This document shows positions 1,399-19,986 of a stretch of 22,703 nt of DNA, in pieces; position 1 is the first letter of the stretch, and every line of letters begins with the position of its first letter. Under the pieces are notes generated by a model. That model worked only from the letters and a program-made list of their open reading frames with translations. It had not been told where the DNA came from and did no database searches. This stretch comes from Opitutaceae bacterium. Lineage in GTDB: Bacteria > Verrucomicrobiota > Verrucomicrobiia > Opitutales > Opitutaceae. The position numbers and the translations under genes are program-made. Location of the stretch: the NCBI GenBank assembly GCA_031254955.1, contig JAIRTK010000008.1, positions 1 through 22,703 on the forward strand. Reading direction: 5' to 3'.

Positions 1399-1851
1399 AC
1401 CTGTTCAGCCCCCACCGGCCCCCTTTTCTGCAGTGCGCAACACGACGTGCCGAATGCCCCTTTACCAACCGGAATTGGAGCCTTTTTGGGTTTATTGTGT
1501 CGCCAACGCAAACGATCTGGCGCGGAAGCGCCGGTAGGGAGGCCTCTCCGAGGCCTCCGCCGTGCGGGGCCGGGTGTTTGGAATTTCATGGGTAAATCGG
1601 AGCGTGGTGACGGAGGACTCCGAGAGGCCTCTCTGCCGCCGGACTTGTGGAGGACGGTTTCCCAAAGTGCCCTGAATCCTGTCGTGCCGCGCCGCGCCAT
1701 CGCGACTGCATGGTAAGCAGAGCGGTGGCGGGAACGCCGCCGTTCCGTCAAGGCTTCCCCTTATTGCCGCCATTCGCAATCACACTTGGAGCCGGATGGT
1801 GTTGATAATTTCGCGAAGCGGATGACAGGATTACGATTCTCGGAGTTCTTG
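1399..1851. other. Gene-free spacer holding a 105-bp palindromic repeat
   Basis: I see no credible gene in this stretch. It holds a small GGCGC/GCGCC hairpin at about 1519-1532, then a 105-bp palindromic repeat at 1533-1637 listed separately. The remainder (about 1640-1850) is GC-rich with no convincing coding pattern. The short open frames here lie on the repeat and are not protein-like. Confidence 0.6.
1533..1637 (+). repeat. 105-bp palindromic repeat, copy 1
   Basis: The ends are inverted: it begins GGTAGGGAGGCCTCTCCGAG and ends with a near reverse complement of this. A second copy of the same 105-base length lies at 14017-14121 in the opposite orientation; aligned by eye the two differ at 9 positions. 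The conserved centre (about 1575-1610) is not palindromic. Here the repeat is free-standing, while copy 2 lies inside a larger inverted-repeat element. Confidence 0.9.
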
Positions 1852-7681: not shown

Positions 7682-8311
7682 ATGACCTCCCGCGAAACCA
7701 TCCTCGCCCGCGTCCGCGCTGCCCTCGCTCCACTCAAACACCGCGCCCCGTATCCGGATTACCCAGACACCATCGCCGTCCCCCCCCCGCTCGCCCCGCA
7801 ACTCGCGCCCGGCTCCGACCTCTGGACGGCCTTCTCCGCCCGCGCCCGCCTTGTCCACGGCACGCCGATGGAAGGCGGCCCCGCCGCCCTCGCCGCATGG
7901 CTTCGCGAAAAACAACTCACCCGCGGCTACTGCGACCCCGCGCTCCACCCGCAATTCGAGACCGCCCTCGCCGCCGCCGGCATCGCCATCGAGACCACCT
8001 TTGACCGCGCCCGGATTGACGCCTACGAATTTGGCATCACCCAAGCCGCCGCCGCCATCGCCGAAAGCGGAACGCTCGTTCTCTCCGACGCCACGACCAG
8101 CAGCCGCCTCGCCGCGCTCGCCCCCTGGGTGCACATCGCCACGCTCACCCGCGAACACATCCACGCCACCCTGGCCGAAGCCATCGCGGCCCTGGGCGAC
8201 GACCCCAACCTCATCTGGTGCACCGGCCCCTCGCGCACAGCCGACGTGGAAGGCATCCTCATCGAAGGCGTCCACGGCCCCGGCGAACAAATCACCCTTC
8301 TCATGCCGTGA
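7682..8311 (+). CDS. lutC: LutC, lactate utilisation protein
   Basis: LutC is the third LutABC component, a stand-alone LUD (DUF162) domain protein without iron-sulfur cysteines. The start ATG at 7682 lies directly in front of the conserved opening TSRETILARVRAAL. The LUD core is recognisable in FGITQAAAAIAESGTLVLSD, the PSRTADVEG motif and the ending GVHGPGEQITLLMP, the typical C-terminus of this family. Its 209 residues are a normal length. It completes the lutABC set; the spacer upstream is AT-rich and lacks a clear Shine-Dalgarno sequence. Confidence 0.94.
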   Translation: MTSRETILARVRAALAPLKHRAPYPDYPDTIAVPPPLAPQLAPGSDLWTAFSARARLVHGTPMEGGPAALAAWLREKQLTRGYCDPALHPQFETALAAAGIAIETTFDRARIDAYEFGITQAAAAIAESGTLVLSDATTSSRLAALAPWVHIATLTREHIHATLAEAIAALGDDPNLIWCTGPSRTADVEGILIEGVHGPGEQITLLMP

Positions 8312-8335
8312 CGCCCGGTGCCGCCGGATTGCGTG

Positions 8336-8356
8336 GCACGGGCGACCCGCCCGTGC
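8336..8356 (+). terminator. Perfect 9-bp GC hairpin after lutC
   Basis: GCACGGGCG and CGCCCGTGC pair perfectly across a 3-base loop, 24 bases after the lutC stop codon, followed by a short T-containing run (TTTG). It is a candidate transcription terminator, though the T run is weak. A degenerate version occurs near 19225, so it may instead be a dispersed repeat placed here by chance. Confidence 0.45.
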
Positions 8357-8691
8357 TTTGTGACGGCGGCTCACGAAATCGGCCCGTCACTATTTTCGAT
8401 GTCTGAAAACGACAAAAAATTTCTCTCCTACCAATGCTCAATGATAATTGGTATAAAACGGGTTCCTCGCTCTTTTGAATGAATTTCACGTCGCGCAGCT
8501 CCGAAGCAGCGGCAGCGGTTGACGTTTTCAGCCCCGGAGGGGCGTCGGCTCTTAGTTGTCGGTGACGAGCGCAGCGAGGAACCCACGGAATACGTTGATA
8601 ACCACACAAGCCCTGAAGGGGCGACAGCGCACGCCGCCCGGTCATCGCATCTTCCCTCGCTGCCGCCCTTTCAGGTCTCATTTTTTTATTG

Positions 8692-8812
8692 ACTGATGGG
8701 ACGCGCTGCCGTCGTAGCGCAGGTTTCCAAACCTGCTGAGCACGCAACGCTGGCGTAAAATGAAGCAGACTTGGAAGTCTGCGCTACGACCGAAACAGCG
8801 CGTCCCATCAGT
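8692..8812. repeat. Modular inverted-repeat element, copy A
   Basis: The ends are 17-bp perfect inverted repeats: ACTGATGGGACGCGCTG at 8692-8708 and its complement at 8796-8812. Just inside is a 12-bp perfect pair (GTCGTAGCGCAG at 8711-8722 and 8779-8790), and within that two small hairpins (GCAGGTTTCCAAACCTGC and GCAGACTTGGAAGTCTGC). End sequences of this family recur at 10991-11147, 13964-14165 and 15811-16028. Confidence 0.9.
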
Positions 8813-9050
8813 TATTGATGGATTCCGTGGGTTCCTCGCTGCGCTCGTCACCCACGGCTAACCGCTGCCGCCCCTCCGGGGCTTTGTTGTCTCATCGAAA
8901 AGAGCGGGGAACCATAAAACGCGGTTTCCCCGTAGGGATGGCGCTTGCGACACCCGGTTCGGCAACACGCTGTTCGGGGGCTTCGCTTGCGCAGCCCCCG
9001 CGGGCCGGGCCATTCCCATCAATTTCAGCAGGGCTCCTGAAATTTGCGGG

Positions 9051-9380
9051 CTAAACCGCGCGTGTTTTGGCCGCTGAAACGAATTCTTTTTTGCGCCCTT
9101 GGCCGCCGTCTGCCTCCGGCGGGGCGGATGCGGTCTTTTCTTCCGTCCGGGACGCATTCCGCTCCGTGTTCAGGATGATCGGCAGCGTGATGCTGTGAAA
9201 TTTCTCATAATGGCGGCACAAGGCGTTTAGCAAGGCGCGGATCACCTCGACCTCGCTGATGCCGGTTTCGGACTTGATCCGGGCAAGCATCCGCACCGTG
9301 CGGTCATCAATTTTGGCTGAAATCTGCGGATTGCGAACACCCATGCGGCACACATTACCAAACAGCCGGGGAAAATTCAT
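9051..9380 (-). CDS. Small ribbon-helix-helix-like protein, possible regulator
   Basis: A 109-residue protein. The segment NPQISAKIDDRTVRMLARIK, then SETGISEVEVIRALLNALCR, fits a ribbon-helix-helix (CopG/Arc-like) fold: a short beta strand followed by two helices at about residues 17-55. The C-terminal 40 residues are charged and low complexity. If functional it would bind DNA as a dimer. It is divergent from the envelope gene at 9520, and the spacer holds an 8-bp inverted repeat (9429-9450) that could be its operator; this link is inferred. An alternative start is the ATG at 9344; neither start has a good ribosome binding site. The family call is from pattern only. Confidence 0.6.
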   Translation of the reverse strand: MNFPRLFGNVCRMGVRNPQISAKIDDRTVRMLARIKSETGISEVEVIRALLNALCRHYEKFHSITLPIILNTERNASRTEEKTASAPPEADGGQGRKKEFVSAAKTRAV

Positions 9381-9428
9381 CGACTTAAGTAACTTTATTA
9401 CATGCTTTTACTTATTTTTGTGATTTTA

Positions 9429-9450
9429 CATGCAATAAATGTATTGCATG
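9429..9450. promoter_or_regulatory. Inverted repeat in divergent spacer, candidate operator
   Basis: CATGCAAT and ATTGCATG form a perfect 8-bp inverted repeat with a 6-base centre. Part of the left arm recurs in a direct repeat: TTACATGCTTTTA at 9398-9410 and TTACATGCAATAA at 9427-9439, 29 bases apart. The site lies between the minus-strand small protein (start 9380) and the plus-strand gene (start about 9520), where an autoregulatory operator would be expected. Confidence 0.5.
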
Positions 9451-9519
9451 CATAAACAGTCCAATTCTAAAAACGGCCCGCCACTCAAAGACCTCACCGC
9501 ACGCATGACGCAACAACCC

Positions 9520-10992
9520 ATGAAATCTAAAGGACGGAACATCTTCCGCCTGTCCGTCGCAGCCCTCCTCGTCGCGCTCCCATCCACCGGGAACGCTGCG
9601 CTCAAGGACGTTTTTAAGAAAAAAGCCGACGCCGACGCGCTTTATCAGGAGGCGTTCCTGGCCGGCGACTACGCCGCCGCGCTGGAAACCGGCATCCAGG
9701 CCGCCGGCAAGAAAATGCCCGAAAAGGCGCAGATTCTTTGGCAATTGCACGCCGGCTCCGTCGCGTCCCTCGCAGGAAAAACCGATGATGCCATCAAATT
9801 CTATGACTACGCCGACACTTCGTTCCGGGAGGCGGACGTGGCGCCAAAGGGCAAAAAACTCCTGTCAAATCTCACGAAAGGTTTCAGCAAAAAAGCCGGT
9901 TCCTATGACGGAAAAATCTACGAGCGCATCATGCTCAACACCAGCAAGGGGCTGGCCTGGCTCGGGATGAACGACGCGGAAAAAGCGCGCGTCGAGTTCA
10001 ACCGGATGCGGGAATGGCAGGCGGAGGCGGCGGAGCGGTTCGCAAAGGAAATAGAGAAAGAAAGGGCGGCCGAGGAGGAGGAGCGTCAGAAAAACGCCGC
10101 CCCGCTTCCCGATGCCGGCGAGATTTTGGGGCAGCTCAAGTTTGGTGAAAACGGGCGGGACTTTGACCAGGAATTTCTCACCACCGCGGATTTCAAACCC
10201 TACAAGGATTTTGAAAACCCCTACGCCACTTGGATCGCCGGCCTCGCGGCGCTGCTCGAAAACGACACCGAAAAAGCCGGAAACTACCTGCGGGAGGTGG
10301 TCGGCATGGTGCCCGAATGCAAACAGGCCGCCGAGGATTTCAAAACCGCCTCGGCCGGCCAGCCGGTCGCCGATCGAGTCTGGGTGATCGTCGAAAACGG
10401 ACTTTGCGACAGGCTGGTCGAGGAAAAAACCCGGCTTCCCATTCCCCTGCCGGTGGGCAAGGACAAGGCGGGGAATGCGGAAGTGGTGCTGGTGAACTGC
10501 GTCTTCTCGCTTCCCAAACTGGTGAATCGCGACTCCGCGCAAAAAGCCTACCACGTCGAGGCCGGCGGGCTGCGTTACGAAAGCGAGCTTATTTGCGACA
10601 TGGACCGGGTTGTCCGCGCCGAATATGATAAAACCATTCGCGGGGTGGCCTTGCGCGCGGTCACACACACGCTCGTCCTGTGCGCCGGACAGGCCGTGCT
10701 CAACAAGCAGGCGTCCAAAAAAGGCGGCATTGCGGAACTGGGCGCGACCATCGGCACCGGGCTTGCCGCCGACGCGCTCACCCATGCCGACACCCGCCAG
10801 TGGACGACGCTGCCCGGGGAAATATACATCGCCAGCCTGCCCATCCCCGAGGGGCGCTCGCTTACCTTGTGCTGTGAAACGGGAAAAGCGACCGTCGAGA
10901 TCCCGCCCTGCAAAAACGCCATCGTGCATTACCGCGTGCCCACGACACCCGACAAGGCGCCGCCGCCCCGCGTCATCACCTTCAACAAATAA
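9520..10992 (+). CDS. COG3014-like secreted protein of the LpoB neighbourhood
   Basis: A signal peptide follows the ATG at 9520 (MKSKGRNIFRLSVAALLVAL, cleavage after GNA). Starts at 9505 and 9439 are also in frame, but 9439 falls inside the 9429-9450 inverted repeat. The N-terminal half has TPR-like helices (ALYQEAFLAGDYAAALETGI, KAQILWQLHAGSVASLAGKT), then a charged coiled stretch rich in E/K near residues 165-195. The C-terminal half matches my memory of COG3014 lipoproteins: VWVIVENGL, a middle beta region, and the closing ADTRQWTTLPGEIYIASLPI. There is no lipobox, so it is probably a soluble periplasmic form. The function of this family is unknown. The stop codon overlaps the first bases of an inverted-repeat element. 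Confidence 0.75.
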   Translation: MKSKGRNIFRLSVAALLVALPSTGNAALKDVFKKKADADALYQEAFLAGDYAAALETGIQAAGKKMPEKAQILWQLHAGSVASLAGKTDDAIKFYDYADTSFREADVAPKGKKLLSNLTKGFSKKAGSYDGKIYERIMLNTSKGLAWLGMNDAEKARVEFNRMREWQAEAAERFAKEIEKERAAEEEERQKNAAPLPDAGEILGQLKFGENGRDFDQEFLTTADFKPYKDFENPYATWIAGLAALLENDTEKAGNYLREVVGMVPECKQAAEDFKTASAGQPVADRVWVIVENGLCDRLVEEKTRLPIPLPVGKDKAGNAEVVLVNCVFSLPKLVNRDSAQKAYHVEAGGLRYESELICDMDRVVRAEYDKTIRGVALRAVTHTLVLCAGQAVLNKQASKKGGIAELGATIGTGLAADALTHADTRQWTTLPGEIYIASLPIPEGRSLTLCCETGKATVEIPPCKNAIVHYRVPTTPDKAPPPRVITFNK

Positions 10993-11147
10993 CTGATGTT
11001 ACGCGCCCCTGACGTAACGCGGGTTTCCAAACCGGCTGACGGGCCGAAGGCCCTCCCCGAATGCAAAACAGCATTTTCCCCCTTGGCGTGAACCGCTCGA
11101 AGCAGACTTGGAAGCCTGCGATACGTCAGAGGCTCCGCGTAACATCA
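10991..11147. repeat. Modular inverted-repeat element, copy B
   Basis: TGATGTTACGCG at 10994-11005 is inverted perfectly at 11136-11147. Inside, CTGACGTA at 11009-11016 pairs with 11122-11129, and the GGTTTCCAAACC and GCAGACTTGGAAGCCTGC segments correspond to those of copy A (8692-8812). It begins on the stop codon of the preceding gene. Confidence 0.85.
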
Positions 11148-11160
11148 ATAAATAATATAA

Positions 11161-11335
11161 GGGAGATTCTAAAAATTCACCACCAAGGCACGAAGGACAC
11201 GAAGACTGTAAAAAACAAAAGTCACAAAAACCGGGTTGCCCAATAACCATGAATTAATTGAGGGCCACGATGACGGCATCCCATCTTGGTGTCCTTTGTG
11301 CCTTCGTGGTGAAAAAATAATTTTTGGAATCCCCC
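11161..11335. repeat. 175-bp inverted-repeat element between the COG3014-like and YcfL-like genes
   Basis: The left end (GGGAGATTCTAAAAATTCAC and onward through an AAGGCACGAAGGACACGAAG tract) is matched by the reverse complement of the right end (about 11278-11335), with a small insertion in one arm. The arms are about 45-55 bases and the centre about 75 bases. The GGCACAAAGGACAC-type arm is a motif I recall as common between genes in this phylum; that is memory, not a search. Confidence 0.8.
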
Positions 11336-11363
11336 ATAAAACATCCGAAGTCTCCCGCCCGCG

Positions 11364-11741
11364 ATGAAAACAATCCTTATATCAACATTCGCCGCCGCCC
11401 TCCTGCTCCTCGCGGGCTGCGCGTCGCCCGCGCCCGACCCGCGCCTCACGCTCGCGCCGGGACTCAAAGGCAAAATCCGGGTCGAGCCACTGGTCGTCCG
11501 CGTCAACGACCGGGGCGTCACCGACGCGCGGCTTGTCGTGCATAATACGGATGCCGGGAAGACCCGCGCGTTTGAATACCGCGTGCGCTGGGCGGACGGG
11601 CGGGGCTTCCCCATCGACACGGTCACGGGCAACTGGAGCCGCTTCGCCGTTCCGCCCGGCGCGGCGCACACACTGTCCGTCACCGGCCCCTCGCCGTCCG
11701 CGGCCGGATTTAACATTTACCTGAGAATGGCGGAAAACTAA
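11364..11741 (+). CDS. YcfL-like lipoprotein
   Basis: A 125-residue predicted lipoprotein: MKTILISTFA, a hydrophobic stretch and the lipobox LAGC with C19. The mature part has the layout of Escherichia coli YcfL (DUF1425): a conserved FEYRVRWADGRGFPIDTVTG segment, then SRFAVPPGAAHTLSV and the ending AAGFNIYLRM. YcfL-type genes adjoin lpoB in enterobacteria, and here the LpoB-like gene follows 71 bases downstream, which supports the call. The molecular role is unknown. Location in the outer membrane facing the periplasm is inferred from the lipobox. Confidence 0.8.
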   Translation: MKTILISTFAAALLLLAGCASPAPDPRLTLAPGLKGKIRVEPLVVRVNDRGVTDARLVVHNTDAGKTRAFEYRVRWADGRGFPIDTVTGNWSRFAVPPGAAHTLSVTGPSPSAAGFNIYLRMAEN

Positions 11742-11812
11742 ATGGCGGAAAACCAATCCCTTCCGCCGCCATAATCATTTCCCGTATTAATAATATTATT
11801 GTTATAAATTCC

Positions 11813-12454
11813 ATGAATATAAAATCCATGAGCATTAAAAAAATCATCTCCGGCACGGCGCTCGCGCTCACACTGCTCGCGATTTGCGGCTGCGCCTCCA
11901 GTCCCAGGGTCGTCAACCCGGACCAGGACACCGGCGGCACCAGCGGCGGGTTGGACTCCCGCGATTTCCAAAACGCGGCCAGCGTCATGCTGCAAGACCT
12001 CTTCCGCTCGCACCGCCTCGAAAATCCCAACGGCGGGCGCTACGTGATGGAAATAGGAAAAGTCAAGAATGACACTTCGCTTCGCGGCGTCAGCAGCGAC
12101 CAGATTATATGGACAATCAAGGAGGAGCTTACCAACAGCGGCCTGGTCGCCATCACTTCCGCGATCAGCTCCGGCAGCGCCGGGAATGTCAACGCCGGTG
12201 TCTATGGCGTCCGCGAGCTTCGGGGCGACGCCGAGTTTAATCAGGCCAGCGTCCAGAAAGCCGGGACGCTCATCGCCGCGGATCTCAGCATAAGCGGGCA
12301 GATACTCCAGCGCGACAACCGCCTGGGAAGCACGCTCCGGACGGAATACTATTTCCAGTTAAAAATCACCGACTTGAAGACCGGCTTGGATTTTTGGCAG
12401 AAACAAAACGTCATTGTAAAAGAAGGAAACGCCAGGGAAATGCGCCGCCGCTAA
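11813..12454 (+). CDS. LpoB-like penicillin-binding protein activator lipoprotein
   Basis: A predicted lipoprotein of 213 residues, with lipobox ICGC (C27). In E. coli, LpoB is an outer-membrane lipoprotein that spans the periplasm and switches on PBP1B. Here LDSRDFQNAASVMLQDLF, VMEIGKVKNDTS, TIKEELTNSGLVAIT, LSISGQILQRDNR and EYYFQLKITDLKTGLDFWQK follow the LpoB fold and order. The linker after the lipobox is short (about 20 residues, DQDTGGTSGG), unlike the long disordered linker of the enterobacterial protein. Two in-frame ATGs (11813 and 11828) are possible. Upstream is an AT-rich leader instead of a Shine-Dalgarno site. Confidence 0.83.
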   Translation: MNIKSMSIKKIISGTALALTLLAICGCASSPRVVNPDQDTGGTSGGLDSRDFQNAASVMLQDLFRSHRLENPNGGRYVMEIGKVKNDTSLRGVSSDQIIWTIKEELTNSGLVAITSAISSGSAGNVNAGVYGVRELRGDAEFNQASVQKAGTLIAADLSISGQILQRDNRLGSTLRTEYYFQLKITDLKTGLDFWQKQNVIVKEGNAREMRRR

Positions 12455-12543
12455 CGGGGCGCGCCGGAATCACGCCGTATTGTCTCCTTAATGCCAAACC
12501 CGGATATTATTATTACAATCATCATCATTATTATTATTTGCTT

Positions 12544-13941
12544 ATGAAAACCGCCCGAAATATCATTGCAATCTGCCTGGCGGGCCTGCTGCCTGCCCTT
12601 GCCCACGCCCAAAACGATAACGACGCCCCCGCCGCCAGCCCGGACGGGGGGACGGCGCCGATCAATCCGGACGAGATCAATCAACTGGCCGCCGCGCCCA
12701 CCGCGGGCGAGCGCGTCGAGCAGGAGCGGGACGCCTATCTCAAGGAGCAAAACATCACCCTCGGCGTTCAGGATAAAAAAGGCCGCATTTTTTATTACGC
12801 GCAGCAGGCGGTGGGCGTTCCAGCCACCGACGCCCGCTGGGGACGGGCGCGCATCCTGGCCCATGACGGGGCCTTGCTTGCCGCGCAGACCGAGTTTTTG
12901 CGGGACAGGTTCGGGGCGCAAACCGTCGAAATCGCCCGCACCTATTTTAATCAGGAAAACAATGACGGCGCGGACGAATTTCCCGAGGAAGCCGTCAAAA
13001 ACCCCAAAGGCACGCTGGAGGCCATAGCAAAAAAAGTCGCGGTGCTTGCCGAGGCGAAATTGGACAGTGCGCTTGAGAAAGAGGGTGTTGATCCCGCCCA
13101 ATACAACAACCTGCCGCCCGCCCAAAAAAAGACGCTTTTCATGGACCAGCTGGTCAAAAACACCATCAACAAGGCCGTCGGTGACGCCTCGGGGCTGACC
13201 ACGGTCCAAAGCTTCACGGGCAATGACGAGGCCGGCAATTATGTCGTCGGGGTCATCATGATGTATTCGCCGGATTTGCGGCAGCTCGCGTATGATATAA
13301 GCCACAAAAAACCGTCGCTCATCACGGGAAGGCCGAAAAAGAGCATTCAGGACATGATTCCGACGGACGGTGAAATGCTCAACGAGGCGCTTGGCCTCCG
13401 CGTCGGCTTTGACTCGAACGGACGCCCCTGTGTCATTTCCTTCGGGCAGTGGTCCAGTGATTATAATGGCAAGGACGCGCGCCGCGCCGAGCGGGCGCGC
13501 GAGGCGGCGTCGCGCGTCGCGCTCACGCAGGCGGATGCTTATATAACCACTTTTCAAAATGCCGGCATGAGCTTCCTCGACACGACTTCCGTCGGTCAGT
13601 CCGTCGAGCGCACGCTTGCAAAAGCCCCGGACGGAAACATCACGGACGTGGACACGACCAAATTGATGGAAATTATAAATGAAAAGACCCGGCTCACCGC
13701 CCGCGCGGACATGCTGGGCCGCGCCACCGTGAAGCGATGGAGCTATGTCACGCCCGGAGGCCACCGGATGAGCGGCGTGGTGCGCGCGTGGACGCTCGAA
13801 AACCTGGAGGCGGGGCAGGCGGTGCGCAATTGGAAGCCCTCGACCAAGCCCGCGGCAACCCCTGCCGCGTCTTCCGCCGGAAAGCAGGAGGAGGCCGCGG
13901 GCGTCAAACGCGGATTCGGCCAGGACCTCAATGATTTTTAA
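12544..13941 (+). CDS. Large periplasmic protein of the LpoB cluster, function unknown
   Basis: The ATG at 12544 gives a clean signal peptide (MKTARNIIAICLAGLLPALA, cut after AHA). The frame is open further upstream, but that part covers the end of lpoB and a trinucleotide-rich leader. The mature protein is about 440 residues and soluble-looking, with KLDSALEKEGVDPAQYNNLP near 180, NYVVGVIMMYSPDLRQLAYD near 240 and VISFGQWSSDYNG near 300. The tail is rich in A/P/K. I recall similar proteins, possibly DUF6844, beside COG3014 and LpoB genes in gammaproteobacteria; that is memory only. No catalytic motif is seen. It is the fourth gene of the group, 89 bases after the LpoB-like gene. Confidence 0.7.
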   Translation: MKTARNIIAICLAGLLPALAHAQNDNDAPAASPDGGTAPINPDEINQLAAAPTAGERVEQERDAYLKEQNITLGVQDKKGRIFYYAQQAVGVPATDARWGRARILAHDGALLAAQTEFLRDRFGAQTVEIARTYFNQENNDGADEFPEEAVKNPKGTLEAIAKKVAVLAEAKLDSALEKEGVDPAQYNNLPPAQKKTLFMDQLVKNTINKAVGDASGLTTVQSFTGNDEAGNYVVGVIMMYSPDLRQLAYDISHKKPSLITGRPKKSIQDMIPTDGEMLNEALGLRVGFDSNGRPCVISFGQWSSDYNGKDARRAERAREAASRVALTQADAYITTFQNAGMSFLDTTSVGQSVERTLAKAPDGNITDVDTTKLMEIINEKTRLTARADMLGRATVKRWSYVTPGGHRMSGVVRAWTLENLEAGQAVRNWKPSTKPAATPAASSAGKQEEAAGVKRGFGQDLNDF

Positions 13942-13963
13942 CACGGCTCGCGTTGATTTATAC

Positions 13964-14165
13964 AAGTGAAGTCACGCGGAGGAGTCCTTTTGAACAACCA
14001 AACGAGACAAGCCCAAGGTAGGGAGGCCTCTCCGAGGCCTCCGTCACCACGCTCCGATTTGCCTATGAAATTCCAAACATCCCGCCCCGCCCGGCGGAGG
14101 CCTCGGAGAGGCCTCCCTACCGGCGCCGCCGCGCCCGCACCACGCCGGCCCGCGTGACATCAGTT
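13964..14165. repeat. Modular inverted-repeat element, copy D, with 105-bp palindrome inside
   Basis: The right end CCGCGTGACATCAGTT (14150-14165) is the family end sequence. The left end AAGTGAAGTCACGCGG (13964-13979) is its degenerate inverse. Inside sits copy 2 of the 105-bp palindrome (14017-14121). Thus a different palindrome occupies the interior compared with copies A, B and C. Confidence 0.75.
14017..14121 (-). repeat. 105-bp palindromic repeat, copy 2
   Basis: It is the inverted copy of 1533-1637, with equal length and 9 differences by eye. The ends (GGTAGGGAGGCCTCTCCGAG and its complement at 14102-14121) are a perfect inverted repeat and would form a strong stem. Confidence 0.9.
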
Positions 14166-14354
14166 ATATAAATGAACCCCTGAAATTGTTTTTATCGCGA
14201 AAGATGCCGGGAATGCGAAGATAAAACCGCCGTCATCATGCTTTTCAATTACGCCATGACCAACGGATTTGCTATTTTCCGATTTCATTTTTTCAGCCCC
14301 CGCATCCTTCGCGCCCTTCGCGATTAAATTTTAACAACCCTCCATAATTCCGTC

Positions 14355-15635
14355 ATGAACATAAAAACATTATTCCGCGGCATGGGTTTGCTGTTGGGTT
14401 TCGCGCTGGCCGCGTTCTGCGTGAAAGCCGGCGCCGCCGGGCCAAAATACACAGTGCAGGCCGAAGGCGAGGGGGCGACGCGCCAGCTTGCGATTATCGA
14501 CGCGATCAAGCAGGCGCTCATGCAAGCCGGGGGAGTCAGCCTTGTCGCGGTTGAGCGCCTGAAAAACGAGGAGCACTCGCATTTCTCGTCCCGCGACGGC
14601 GTCGAGCAAAGCTCGCAGACCGGCGACGACAAATTCCAGCGCGACATCCTGAGCGCCACATCCGGCCGCATCGCCGGATACGATGTCATAAGCGCGGACC
14701 GGAGCGGCGGCAATTCATGGACTGTGGTGATAAATGCCACCCTTGACAAATATGACACCCCCGGCAACAGCCCGGACAGCCGGCGCAAACTCGCCATATT
14801 GCCGTTCCGGACGCACGACGGCGGCTACCAGCTGGACGGGGCGGGGCTTGCCGGCGCCGCCATCGCGGATCGCCTCGGGCAGCGTCTTGTGACGACATTT
14901 ACACAGTCGAGGAAATTCGCCGTCGTGGACCGCGATTATACAAATGAATATTTGAAGGAGGCCGGCTTTGTGCAATCCGGCAACGCCCCGAGTTCCGAGC
15001 TGGTCAAGATAGGGCAGGCGCTCGGCGTGGATTATCTCATTGTAGGCGCCATCGAGGAGTTTTCAGGAAGGCTCGTGACGCGGCATCAGGCGGTTACAAA
15101 CCGCCAGTTTTCATATTACGAAGGCGCCGCCATCGCCTCCTACCGGATACTCGTCATGGCCACGCGCCAGATAAAATGGAGCGACACCATCCGGCTGGAC
15201 ATTGGCGCGATTCCCGACGGCGGGCCGGAGGCGAGGCTCGACATGGCCGTCACCGAAATCGCGCGGACAATCGGCGGGCAGGCGCTGGAAAACATATATC
15301 CCGTCAAAATCGTCGATATAGACATGGAAACCGGGGACGTGATAATCGGACGCGGCGGCGAAAGCATTCTGACTGGTGATCGTTTCGACGCCATGAGTGT
15401 CTCGGACAAAGTCATTATTGATCCCGACACCGGGGAGCCTTTGGAAAGGCGGGAGACGCCGGTCGCCCTTTTGGAAATCACCCGTGTCGGAGCCAAGATG
15501 TCCTACGCCAGGATTCTCCAGGGCGACATCGCCCGTTTGAAGACGGGTGACATCGTGCGACGGAACCCGGAGGCGGCATCCCAGCCCGCGCTGGCGGCGC
15601 CGCCGCCGGTGGTAAAGTTTCCCGGCGACCGGTGA
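14355..15635 (+). CDS. FlgT/CsgG-like secreted envelope protein
   Basis: A 426-residue protein with a signal peptide (cleavage near KAGA at 24-27). Three regions fit FlgT-type proteins. Residues 32-66 (YTVQAEGEGATRQLAIIDAI, KQALMQAGG) resemble the FlgT N domain. Residues 145-240 (KLAILPFRT, GAAIADRLGQRLVTTFTQSR, KFAVVDRDY, LGVDYLIVGAIEEF) resemble the CsgG/TolB-like middle fold. Residues 315-400 (VKIVDIDMETGDVIIGRGG, TGDRF, DPDTGEPL, GDIVRR) resemble the small C-terminal barrel. FlgT belongs to the flagellar H ring and CsgG is an outer-membrane pore; no flagellar or curli gene is nearby, so the partner is more likely the LpoB/YcfL group. It is last in the row, and a large hairpin follows its stop. 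Confidence 0.72.
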   Translation: MNIKTLFRGMGLLLGFALAAFCVKAGAAGPKYTVQAEGEGATRQLAIIDAIKQALMQAGGVSLVAVERLKNEEHSHFSSRDGVEQSSQTGDDKFQRDILSATSGRIAGYDVISADRSGGNSWTVVINATLDKYDTPGNSPDSRRKLAILPFRTHDGGYQLDGAGLAGAAIADRLGQRLVTTFTQSRKFAVVDRDYTNEYLKEAGFVQSGNAPSSELVKIGQALGVDYLIVGAIEEFSGRLVTRHQAVTNRQFSYYEGAAIASYRILVMATRQIKWSDTIRLDIGAIPDGGPEARLDMAVTEIARTIGGQALENIYPVKIVDIDMETGDVIIGRGGESILTGDRFDAMSVSDKVIIDPDTGEPLERRETPVALLEITRVGAKMSYARILQGDIARLKTGDIVRRNPEAASQPALAAPPPVVKFPGDR

Positions 15636-15684
15636 ATGTCGTTTTTGTGGTTTCCCGCCATTTTGAATGGCTGGTTTGTTTCCA

Positions 15685-15758
15685 ATGGCCACAAAGAGGC
15701 ACAAAAGGCACAAGATTGAGTGATTGTTTTTGTGCTTCTTGTGCCTCTTTGTGGCCAT
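15685..15758 (+). terminator. Large hairpin after the FlgT-like gene
   Basis: ATGGCCACAAAGAGGCACAA (starting 15685) is mirrored by the inverse ending at 15758, with arms of about 29 bases, few mismatches and a short A/T-rich loop. It starts 50 bases after the stop codon and is followed by TTTTATACC. It could end transcription of the envelope genes, and is also one of the GGCACAAA-type dispersed palindromes. Confidence 0.5.
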
Positions 15759-15810
15759 TTTATACCAATTCCCAACGATATTTTGGGTTCTTCGCTATTT
15801 TGAATGAATA

Positions 15811-16028
15811 ACTGATGTTACGCGGCCCCCCTCCGGCCGCACTGCGAGGCTTGTTATGGAGTGCGGCGACCTGGTGCCGCTTTTGACGGCGCGACCTGGC
15901 GCGCCGCCCCGCCTGCCGCCGTCGCCCGGGGGAACCCCAGGGAGAATCGCGGCGGGCCGCCAGGTCGGTCCGTCAAAAGCGGTGCCAGGTCACCGCACTC
16001 CATAAAAGAACCGCCGCGTAACATCAGT
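15811..16028. repeat. Modular inverted-repeat element, copy C
   Basis: The ends are a 16-bp perfect inverted repeat: ACTGATGTTACGCGGC at 15811-15826 and its complement at 16013-16028. Inside, a 36-base arm (15854-15889, starting TTATGGAGTGCGG) is inverted at 15970-16005 with about 3 mismatches. The interior is unlike copies A, B and D. Outside the ends, GGTTCTTCGCTATTTTGAAT (from about 15786) pairs loosely with the inverse at about 16034-16055. Confidence 0.9.
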
Positions 16029-16116
16029 GAATCAAACCAGCCATCGAAAATAGCGACGACCCAATATTATTTTTCCCCGCCGTCTTCGCTGGCGGGACAA
16101 ACTGAACCCATCCGAC

Positions 16117-19327: not shown

Positions 19328-19381
19328 AAGCAGACTTGGAAGTCTGCGCTACGACCAAGGCAGCGCATAACCTCAGTTATT
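19328..19381. repeat. Half copy of the modular element (E)
   Basis: These 54 bases match the right half of copy A (8763-8816) at about 47 positions by eye, including GCAGACTTGGAAGTCTGC, GCGCTACGAC and the end CTCAGTTATT. A clear left end is not found upstream, so it is truncated or strongly diverged. Confidence 0.75.
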
Positions 19382-19462: not shown

Positions 19463-19522
19463 TTACACAGATTTACGCAGATTAAGAATGAATTATTAGA
19501 AAATCTGCGTAAATCTGTGTAA
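19463..19522. repeat. 21-bp perfect inverted repeat
   Basis: TTACACAGATTTACGCAGAT plus T (19463-19483) is inverted without a mismatch at 19502-19522, across an 18-base AT-rich centre. It is immediately followed by the ATACCAATTCC motif. Confidence 0.92.
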
Positions 19523-19562
19523 TACCAATTCCCAATGAGATTTATCCTTTTGTAGTCAGATT

Positions 19563-19670
19563 TTGCTCTTTCTCTTTATTCTTTATCTTTCCTCTTTCTC
19601 TTCCTTCCTCCCATTACTGATTGGAAACGAGGAGAAAGAGAAAGATAAAGAGGAAAGAGAAAGAAATGGG
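19563..19670. repeat. Long polypyrimidine/polypurine palindrome
   Basis: A C/T-only run on the + strand (about 19566-19611, CTCTTTCTCTTTATTCTTTA type) is followed after a short loop by a G/A-rich run (about 19629-19665) that is largely its reverse complement, including AGAAAGAG, AAAGATAAAGA and AAAGAGAAAGA. It would form a long hairpin. Confidence 0.8.
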
Positions 19671-19719
19671 CAGCACGGCGGCTATCCATCCAAAAGAATA
19701 AATTTTGTTCGGAATTGGT

Positions 19720-19986
19720 ATTATTGCAGACAAAGGCTACGATACCAACGAGATTGTAGAGGACGCCCGTCACCGTGGCATGGCAGTAGTCATCCCGCCG
19801 CGCAAGCATCGGGTGGCACCAAGAAACTAGGACCGTTATTTGTATCGGCAGCGGCATCTGGTGGAAAACGCCATCCTGAAACTGAAAGGCTGGCGAGGAA
19901 TCGCCACACGTTCTGTGAAAAACGCCTCCATTTTCCTTGCCGCCGTCCCAATCCGATGTCTTTACCTCTGATTCAAAATCTCATGA
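19720..19986 (+). pseudogene. Decayed 3' end of an IS4/IS5-type transposase
   Basis: In frame from 19720 the sequence reads ADKGYDTNEIVEDARHRGMA, VVIPPRKHRVAPRN, a stop at 19828-19830, then DRYLYRQRHLVENAILKLKG, WRGIATRSVKNASIFLAAV and IRCLYL, a second stop at 19969-19971, and FKIS before a final stop at 19984. This is the C-terminal part of an IS4/IS5-type DDE transposase: the DKGYD segment and the YRQRHLVENAILKLKG segment with the last acidic residue. The 5' two-thirds is missing and two internal stops show the gene is dead. No intact terminal repeats are visible, but the remnant abuts a GGAATTGGTAT motif that recurs in the window. Confidence 0.85.

Follow-up and report, generated by a model that had tools for sequence, protein, structure and literature searches.

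A MITE-like repeat family in Opitutaceae with common ends and variable palindromic interiors, mostly REPINs

Results

The window examined here, a stretch of 22,703 nucleotides on contig C260 of an Opitutaceae genome (G000; 3.58 Mb in 574 contigs, 68.7% complete), carries four short palindromic elements, A to D, and a half copy, which have related ends and differ in what the ends enclose. All lie on the + strand. We describe them here as members of a family of apparent miniature inverted-repeat transposable elements (MITEs), most of whose interiors are REPINs (REP doublets forming hairpins, REP standing for repetitive extragenic palindrome).

The original prediction had placed related ends at five positions of the window, and all five were confirmed, as was the difference between the enclosed palindromes; the bounds of A and D stood, while those of B (earlier 10991-11147), C and the half copy had to be shifted. 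Element A (8692..8812) has its ends at 8692-8705 and 8799-8812 (ACTGATGGGACGCG), encloses a REPIN (GTAGCGCAGGTTTCCAAACCTGC / GTAGCGCAGACTTCCAAGTCTGC) with arms at 8711-8737 and 8764-8790, and lies between exact copies of the target duplication TATTG (8687-8691 and 8813-8817). Element B (10992..11149) carries the ends ACTGATGTTACGCG and ATTGATGTTACGCG around A-type REPs, and its target duplication, AAATA (10987-10991 and 11150-11154), is also exact. Element C (13965..14164; ends AGTGAAGTCACGCG and ACTGATGTCACGCG) holds a REPIN of the GTAGGGAGGCCTCTCCGAGGCCTCC type, whose arms at 14017-14043 and 14095-14121 are 100% complementary, and has no exact target duplication at its flanks (TATACA/TATATA). 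The perfect ends of element D (15811..16028) surround a palindrome headed by GGAGTGCGG (arms 15854-15911 and 15948-16005), with an imperfect duplication (GAATA/GAATC), and the half copy (19328..19377) consists of an A-type REP and the right end only (19364-19377, 2 mismatches). When the window was scanned for the end at up to 3 mismatches, 10 matches were found, one of them a chance match inside B, against a mean of 1.43 and a maximum of 7 in shuffled windows (0 of 100 reached 10).

The genes from A to D comprise one with no Pfam match, one each of the DUF1425, LpoB and DUF6844 families and one with a weak CsgG match; a cinA-like gene and uvrC come next. The original prediction had noted that three of the four elements lie around the envelope genes, which now looks incidental, as the ends are spread over many contigs of the genome. 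Element B sits at the stop codon of the open reading frame 9439-10992 and begins with the final base of the TAA; when the flanks of B are joined, a stop is again read at the end of this frame. A block of the window, 8303-16116, with the LpoB, DUF6844 and CsgG-like genes and all four elements, is missing from the near-complete genome G002 of the same genus, which has ~290 bp at this position between DNA that is ~90% identical on either side. A composite transposon, in which A and D bound the 7.3-kb gene block, was considered and rejected as unsupported, because the outer flanks TATTG and GAATC form no duplication; the borders of the block missing in G002 do not coincide with the elements. More intergenic inverted repeats, of the CACGAAGGCAC / CACAAAGAGGCACAA type, lie at 11176-11320 and 15675-15768.

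In the genome of the window, the end ACTGATGTTACGCG was matched 449 times (237 + 212) at up to 2 mismatches, compared with 7 (5 + 2) for the reversed control. The comparison set consisted of 57 genomes, the window's own and its relatives, and four of them carry the family at up to 1 mismatch: G000 with 236 ends, the Opitutaceae metagenome-assembled genome (MAG) Nm470_bin120 (G001) with 686, G002 with 24 and G007 with 52. The remaining 53 have 0-2 such ends, like the control. At up to 2 mismatches, G007 has 132 ends against 36 in the control, and G002 shows no excess (60 against 64). The terminal inverted repeat found at both ends is the 14-bp ACTGATGTTACGCR, and the conservation common to different interior types ends after about 14 bp. 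Among 362 ends, each position has one base in at least 85% (position 14 is G or A), except position 6 with 307 T, although these values are inflated by the selection of ends at up to 3 mismatches.

Elements were defined as pairs of neighbouring ends (+ then -) with up to 3 mismatches each and up to 5 together, starting less than 320 bp apart and with 12 nt of flank, after removal of duplicates and of the chance match at window position 11008. This selection favours well-conserved copies, and the loci (L numbers) were fetched for carrying ends or interiors, so that the counts are not genome-wide rates. There were 181 pairs of 33-326 bp: 76 in G000, 45 in the Opitutaceae MAG Gx485_bin97 (G058), 33 in G001, 15 in G007, 11 in G002 and 1 in a MAG recorded as Methylococcaceae. 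The genome-wide check that had been proposed found the ends enriched and, among the places listed, often in inverted pairs around widely differing interiors.

Exact direct repeats flank 69 of the 181 pairs (54 of 5 bp and 15 of 6 bp), whereas random re-pairing of the flanks gave means of 2.17 and 0.30, with maxima of 8 and 4 in 1000 shuffles. The excess of 5-bp duplications holds in each of the five Opitutaceae genomes separately. The 5 flanking nt have an AT content of 75%, compared with 39% at 150-200 nt away, and 68 exact 5-bp duplications (these 54 and 14 from the Methylococcaceae-recorded MAG) centre on TATTA. Transposition of the IS200/IS605 type, to which the REP-associated tyrosine transposases (RAYTs) are related, leaves no target duplication. 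The exact 5- and 6-bp duplications thus count against the idea that the ends are an extended foot of RAYT-mobilised REPINs and that a RAYT moves the whole unit. That most interiors are REPINs, and that REPs of one type, K, stand on both sides of a Y1_Tnp gene (see below), would fit this idea, but the same ends also enclose unrelated REPs in two phyla as well as palindromes that are not REPs, and REPINs free of ends occur, so that we consider it very improbable.

Empty sites were found as well. Element A splits a larger palindromic repeat (8658-8691 / 8818-8883), and both an intact copy in G001 (L279) and an inverted intact copy in the window (8530..8629, - strand) can be aligned with its joined flanks across the junction. 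Among the five elements for which such paralogous sites are shown, L042 (D type, three intact copies) and L321 (one) are also clean through the junction, but L310 has mismatches there and L319 is of low complexity. For orthologous sites, the joined flanks of 12 elements were searched in G000, G001 and G002, with 40 candidates scored per genome. The site of L029 is empty in G002 and that of L211 in both G000 and G001, with one target copy each, and G002 also has empty sites for L015 and L133, though with small gaps where the flanks join; the other 8 gave no match across the junction in another of these three genomes. Because the empty sites are without ends and interior alike, ends and interior arrive together.

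Target duplications and empty sites, both proposed as checks in the original prediction, support its claim that this is a mobile, non-autonomous repeat whose ends are common and whose palindromic interiors vary. Together with the ends they point to a MITE-type transposon family of Opitutaceae: judged by sequence, the elements are MITEs, being short, gene-less and multi-copy, with terminal inverted repeats and target duplications. As duplications and empty sites show insertion, there is little to be said for structured RNAs or regulatory palindromes that are kept for a function at gene ends and are not mobile, a reading to which we give hardly any credence. The interiors do fold strongly, and the window copies stand between genes with family matches, B abutting a stop codon, but in the window a tRNA alone reached the Rfam gathering score.

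The original prediction had also held that the two ends of each copy match even where copies differ, which is true of A, C and D at the positions concerned and does not hold as a rule; both ends of C carry GTCACGCG, not GTTACGCG as had been read. GG at end positions 8-9 (GGGACGCG) was found in 10 of the 181 elements (9 under stricter matching) and on both ends in one, window A. Over all elements, 25 non-consensus bases are common to both ends (3 of them in the window). Shuffling of the right ends gave 13.2 within genomes (0 of 1000 shuffles reached 25) and 17.4 within genome and interior cluster (7 of 1000). Pairing or compensatory change between the ends is not supported, as there is just a weak excess of shared variants. 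From these counts, the weak linkage is likely to be real, yet without a compensatory rule, and is perhaps due to occasional conversion between the ends.

Clustering confirmed that the interiors differ widely behind one pair of ends. At 60% mutual coverage the 181 interiors form 40 clusters, a number that includes three minis with less than 20 nt inside and several clusters sharing a REP core, and which is therefore not one of independent captures; sorted by core pattern, the interiors represent about a dozen palindrome families. The majority of interiors are REP doublets, with the cores GTAGCGCAGACTTCC (A and B), GTAGGGAGGCCTCTCC (C), GGAGTGCGGCGACC (D), GTAGGGCCTGACC, GTAGGGCGGTCTCG, GTGGCACGGGC, GTGGCGCGGGC, GTAGGGGCGTCGC and others. 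At 198 of 330 ends, a GTAG, GTGG or GGAG head with its hairpin is turned towards the element end, against 11 of 330 where it points inward (controls 7 and 9 of 288); 16 elements with short interiors are left out of this count. Of 37 representatives folded, one per cluster, 27 had z<-3, compared with 3 of 37 flank controls of equal length. Interiors that are not REPs include pyrimidine/purine palindromes (L272, L278 and L296) and an ATGGGAG-type palindrome (L228 and L276), and the spacers between end and REP vary from 3 to 52 nt overall. One composite can be present at many sites: cluster 0 contains 48 elements, 37 of them in Gx485_bin97, whose loci were picked by an end spacing of 90-120.

C-type interiors also occur outside the ends. 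A free C-type REPIN (1519..1637, - strand), 91% identical to 14017-14135 on the other strand, has no ACTGATG end nearby at up to 3 mismatches, so that this interior exists without its frame. Among 30 C-type loci fetched, 23 could be classed (7 fell to a position filter): both ends are present at 9 of these, a single end at 10 and no end at 4, or 3 if L140, which shows a left end by inspection, is set aside. At 19520-19944 of the window, a second end pair (TAATACCAATTCC .. GGAATTGGTATTA) surrounds a pyrimidine/purine palindrome next to a remnant of a PF01609 transposase with a stop (19711-19944). As a like palindrome lies between ACTGATG ends in G001 (L272, L278 and L296), two MITE-like families may share interiors.

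Signs of turnover were seen in several elements. Although 15 of the 181 were flagged for more than one REP family, several of these are cross-hits of similar cores, and we rely on two hybrids, A+C in L043 and A+H in L312. There are minis of 33-42 bp with scarcely any interior, and those of 37-42 bp with exact duplications are L203 (TCTTT), L277 (GAAGTA) and L398 (GAAAA). In G001, a 461-bp end pair (L187, 1054-1514) holds a pyrimidine palindrome and a copy of the repeat that is split by window A, which indicates, taken with A itself, that repeats are nested in each other in both directions. Hybrids, nested repeat and minis point to continuing loss and mixing. The earlier proposal that the elements acquire or exchange inner hairpins is the best reading of the many interiors and few hybrids, except that exchange in place was not observed for the 12 elements whose flanks were searched in other genomes.

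These findings bear on two other explanations. First, there could be several independent MITE families, whose ends are common through selection by one transposase and whose interiors were never exchanged. Most clusters are confined to one genome and each large cluster shows a characteristic spacer pair, as would be expected. However, C-type REPINs are also present outside the ends, hybrid, nested and mosaic interiors exist, and the independent origin of at least a dozen interiors, most of them palindromes oriented the same way, would still need a process of capture; we find this explanation doubtful, though deserving of some weight. Second, a RAYT could insert REPINs in situ into pre-existing empty MITEs, the inner edge being a preferred target and the frame coming first. 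REP heads that face the ends, often a few bases inside them, the near-empty 33-42-bp elements, three with exact target duplications, and the presence of Y1_Tnp genes in the genome are in line with this. However, the informative empty sites are without ends and interior alike, some interiors (pyrimidine palindromes and the ATGGGAG type) have no REP head, and the spacer lengths vary. Two of the minis also look, by eye, like deletion products of longer elements in the same genome, since the middle of L203 is similar to G007 spacers and the middle of L277 to the pyrimidine-type spacer. In-situ insertion is therefore unlikely.

A scan of genome contigs for exact end pairs gave 38 stretches in three MAGs, two of Opitutaceae and one, LinL3_bin-0520 (G057), recorded as Methylococcaceae; a viral contig scan gave 0 matches to the exact pair at 90-120 bp spacing. 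Both scans used exact ends and this single spacing range, so their counts are lower bounds. G057 has 193 ends at up to 1 mismatch against 1 in the control, on many contigs including ones of 50-78 kb. Among 100 places listed, 17 end in GCG without mismatch and most others in GCA. Exact 5-bp duplications flank 14 of 28 elements (shuffle mean 0.88). The interiors of these elements group into 8 clusters; the cores include GTAGGGCGGCCTTCAGGCCGC, GTAGGTCGGCAACCC and GGAGCGTCAAAGC and also a GGATAACATCCC palindrome. None of the 28 matches any of 177 Opitutaceae interiors at E 1e-3, a result in favour of the explanation by independent families. The G+C content is 0.54 in the G057 loci read and 0.61 in the window. 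The Methylococcaceae assignment comes from the record title only and could reflect a binning error, but this would need to have hit many contigs. Plasmid records contained no match to a window element or a G057 element.

A profile search with PF01609 alone gave 45 matches, and in the 30 loci that were fetched for these, no transposase stood between ends of the family 0.5-4 kb apart. Two loci, L303 and L351, contain three wide end pairs whose flanks both read TATTA. In L351 (1780-2956, G001), two elements ~1 kb apart have TATTA outer flanks and a 256-aa reading frame between them. This could be a composite like TIME-COMP or could be chance, because TATTA is the commonest target. The genome of the window has six Y1_Tnp places. 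In one (L014, G000:C529), the Y1_Tnp gene has an HLH motif and K-type REPs (GTAGGGGCTTCGCTTGCGAAGCCC) on either side, and is likely to be a RAYT with its own REPs; L010 and L012 show one K-type REP each and L009 an A-type REP elsewhere in the locus, and no C- or D-type REP was shown beside the Y1_Tnp genes at the six places.

Discussion

The explanation that we consider probable is that these elements are MITEs moved by a transposase acting in trans, and that their interior is not fixed and is usually a host REPIN captured by the pairing of ends. Judging from the footprint, a putative transposase of the DDE kind would cut at the ends and insert the whole unit into AT-rich targets of 5-6 bp, with a consensus near TATTA, which would be duplicated on insertion. 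The interior is usually a REPIN, in which two host REP palindromes such as are attributed to RAYTs stand head-out, and sometimes another palindrome, and different hosts fill the same ends with different repeats. New interiors would most likely arise when a REPIN or another repeat happens to lie between two ends that are used together, giving a composite that is then copied. Capture of local REPINs in this way can be likened to the mobilisation of plasmid segments by Tn3-derived inverted-repeat miniature elements (TIMEs), as far as these are described in the available text of PMC4133298. Deletion and recombination among copies would follow; both this and capture are suggested by the hybrid and nested elements. 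A palindromic interior may even be favoured, if it draws the two ends together.

Several observations weigh against this explanation. No exact 5- or 6-bp duplication is present at 112 of the 181 pairs, window C and D included. No locus has different interiors in two genomes (12 elements were searched, and the 4 matched were all empty). No transposase bounded by the ends was found in the loci read, where end pairs 0.5-4 kb apart enclosing a gene were looked for, and no spaced end pair with a transposase was present among 100 of 132 places listed for G007 and 50 of 60 for G002, both near-complete genomes. Ten of the 37 folded interiors are not clearly palindromic, 5 of them being shorter than 60 nt. 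All 30 D-type loci (~26 distinct places, four being counted on both strands) have at least one end. In most families the spacers between end and REP come as a characteristic pair (e.g. 4/14, 8/11 and 30/39), which is what a unit that was formed once and then copied should show.

A wider version of capture by end pairing can be put forward tentatively, as possible rather than probable. The ends would form a broad-host-range chassis with two layers of mobility, present in at least two phyla, into which each bacterial lineage supplies the REPINs made by its own RAYTs, taken up whole and head-out. REPINs would then be spread by a second, duplication-forming transposase in addition to the RAYT, and the interiors of the MITEs would turn over in a modular slot.

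For bacterial MITEs, the usual picture is a single interior per family. In the family described here, a single pair of ends encloses about a dozen palindrome families, with different REPINs in Opitutaceae and in the Methylococcaceae-recorded MAG, which links two classes of bacterial repeats that have been treated separately. This bears on the open question of how REPINs spread, since it would give them a second route of movement with recognisable insertions, in the form of target duplications and empty sites. The elements are also a natural set for testing which interiors a miniature transposon can tolerate or may prefer.

The end sequence was found in no paper text of the searched literature, and no description of REPINs carried inside a MITE was found there either, subscription papers being outside its coverage. 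Bcr1, ERIC, EFAR and NEMIS are, like the elements here, short, high-copy and hairpin-forming with terminal inverted repeats, and to our knowledge each of these families has one interior, or related interiors. All four are named in PMC3733652. The TIRtrons/TIRYTs and "double inverted repeats" of Pseudomonas are similar in joining degenerate GTAG REPs to unrelated stem-loops, and occur hundreds of times in P. putida and P. fluorescens; they differ in being reported around tyrosine transposase genes, and no target duplications are mentioned for them in the available text (PMC3733652).

With REPINs and the GTAG REPs of RAYTs, the interiors have in common the GTAG/GTGG-type heads and the inverted doublets, as described in the accessible parts of PMC3116915 and PMC3733652, and the latter gives O. 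terrae (Verrucomicrobia) as highly enriched in GTAG repeats. The difference is that they are cargo here, between DDE-style ends with target duplications, and the term "target site duplication" is absent from the main text of PMC3116915. According to the available text of PMC4133298, TIMEs are likewise non-autonomous, without a transposase gene, insert at AT-rich targets that show duplications of 5 or 6 bp, combine shared ends with cores that differ, and have mosaic and composite derivatives. Their ends are 38 bp long and of Tn3 type and they are usually single-copy, whereas the common end here is ~14 bp, copies run to hundreds and the interiors are REPINs or other palindromes. The family is therefore, so far as these sources describe known systems, a REPIN-carrying MITE with TIMEs and REPINs as its closest precedents.

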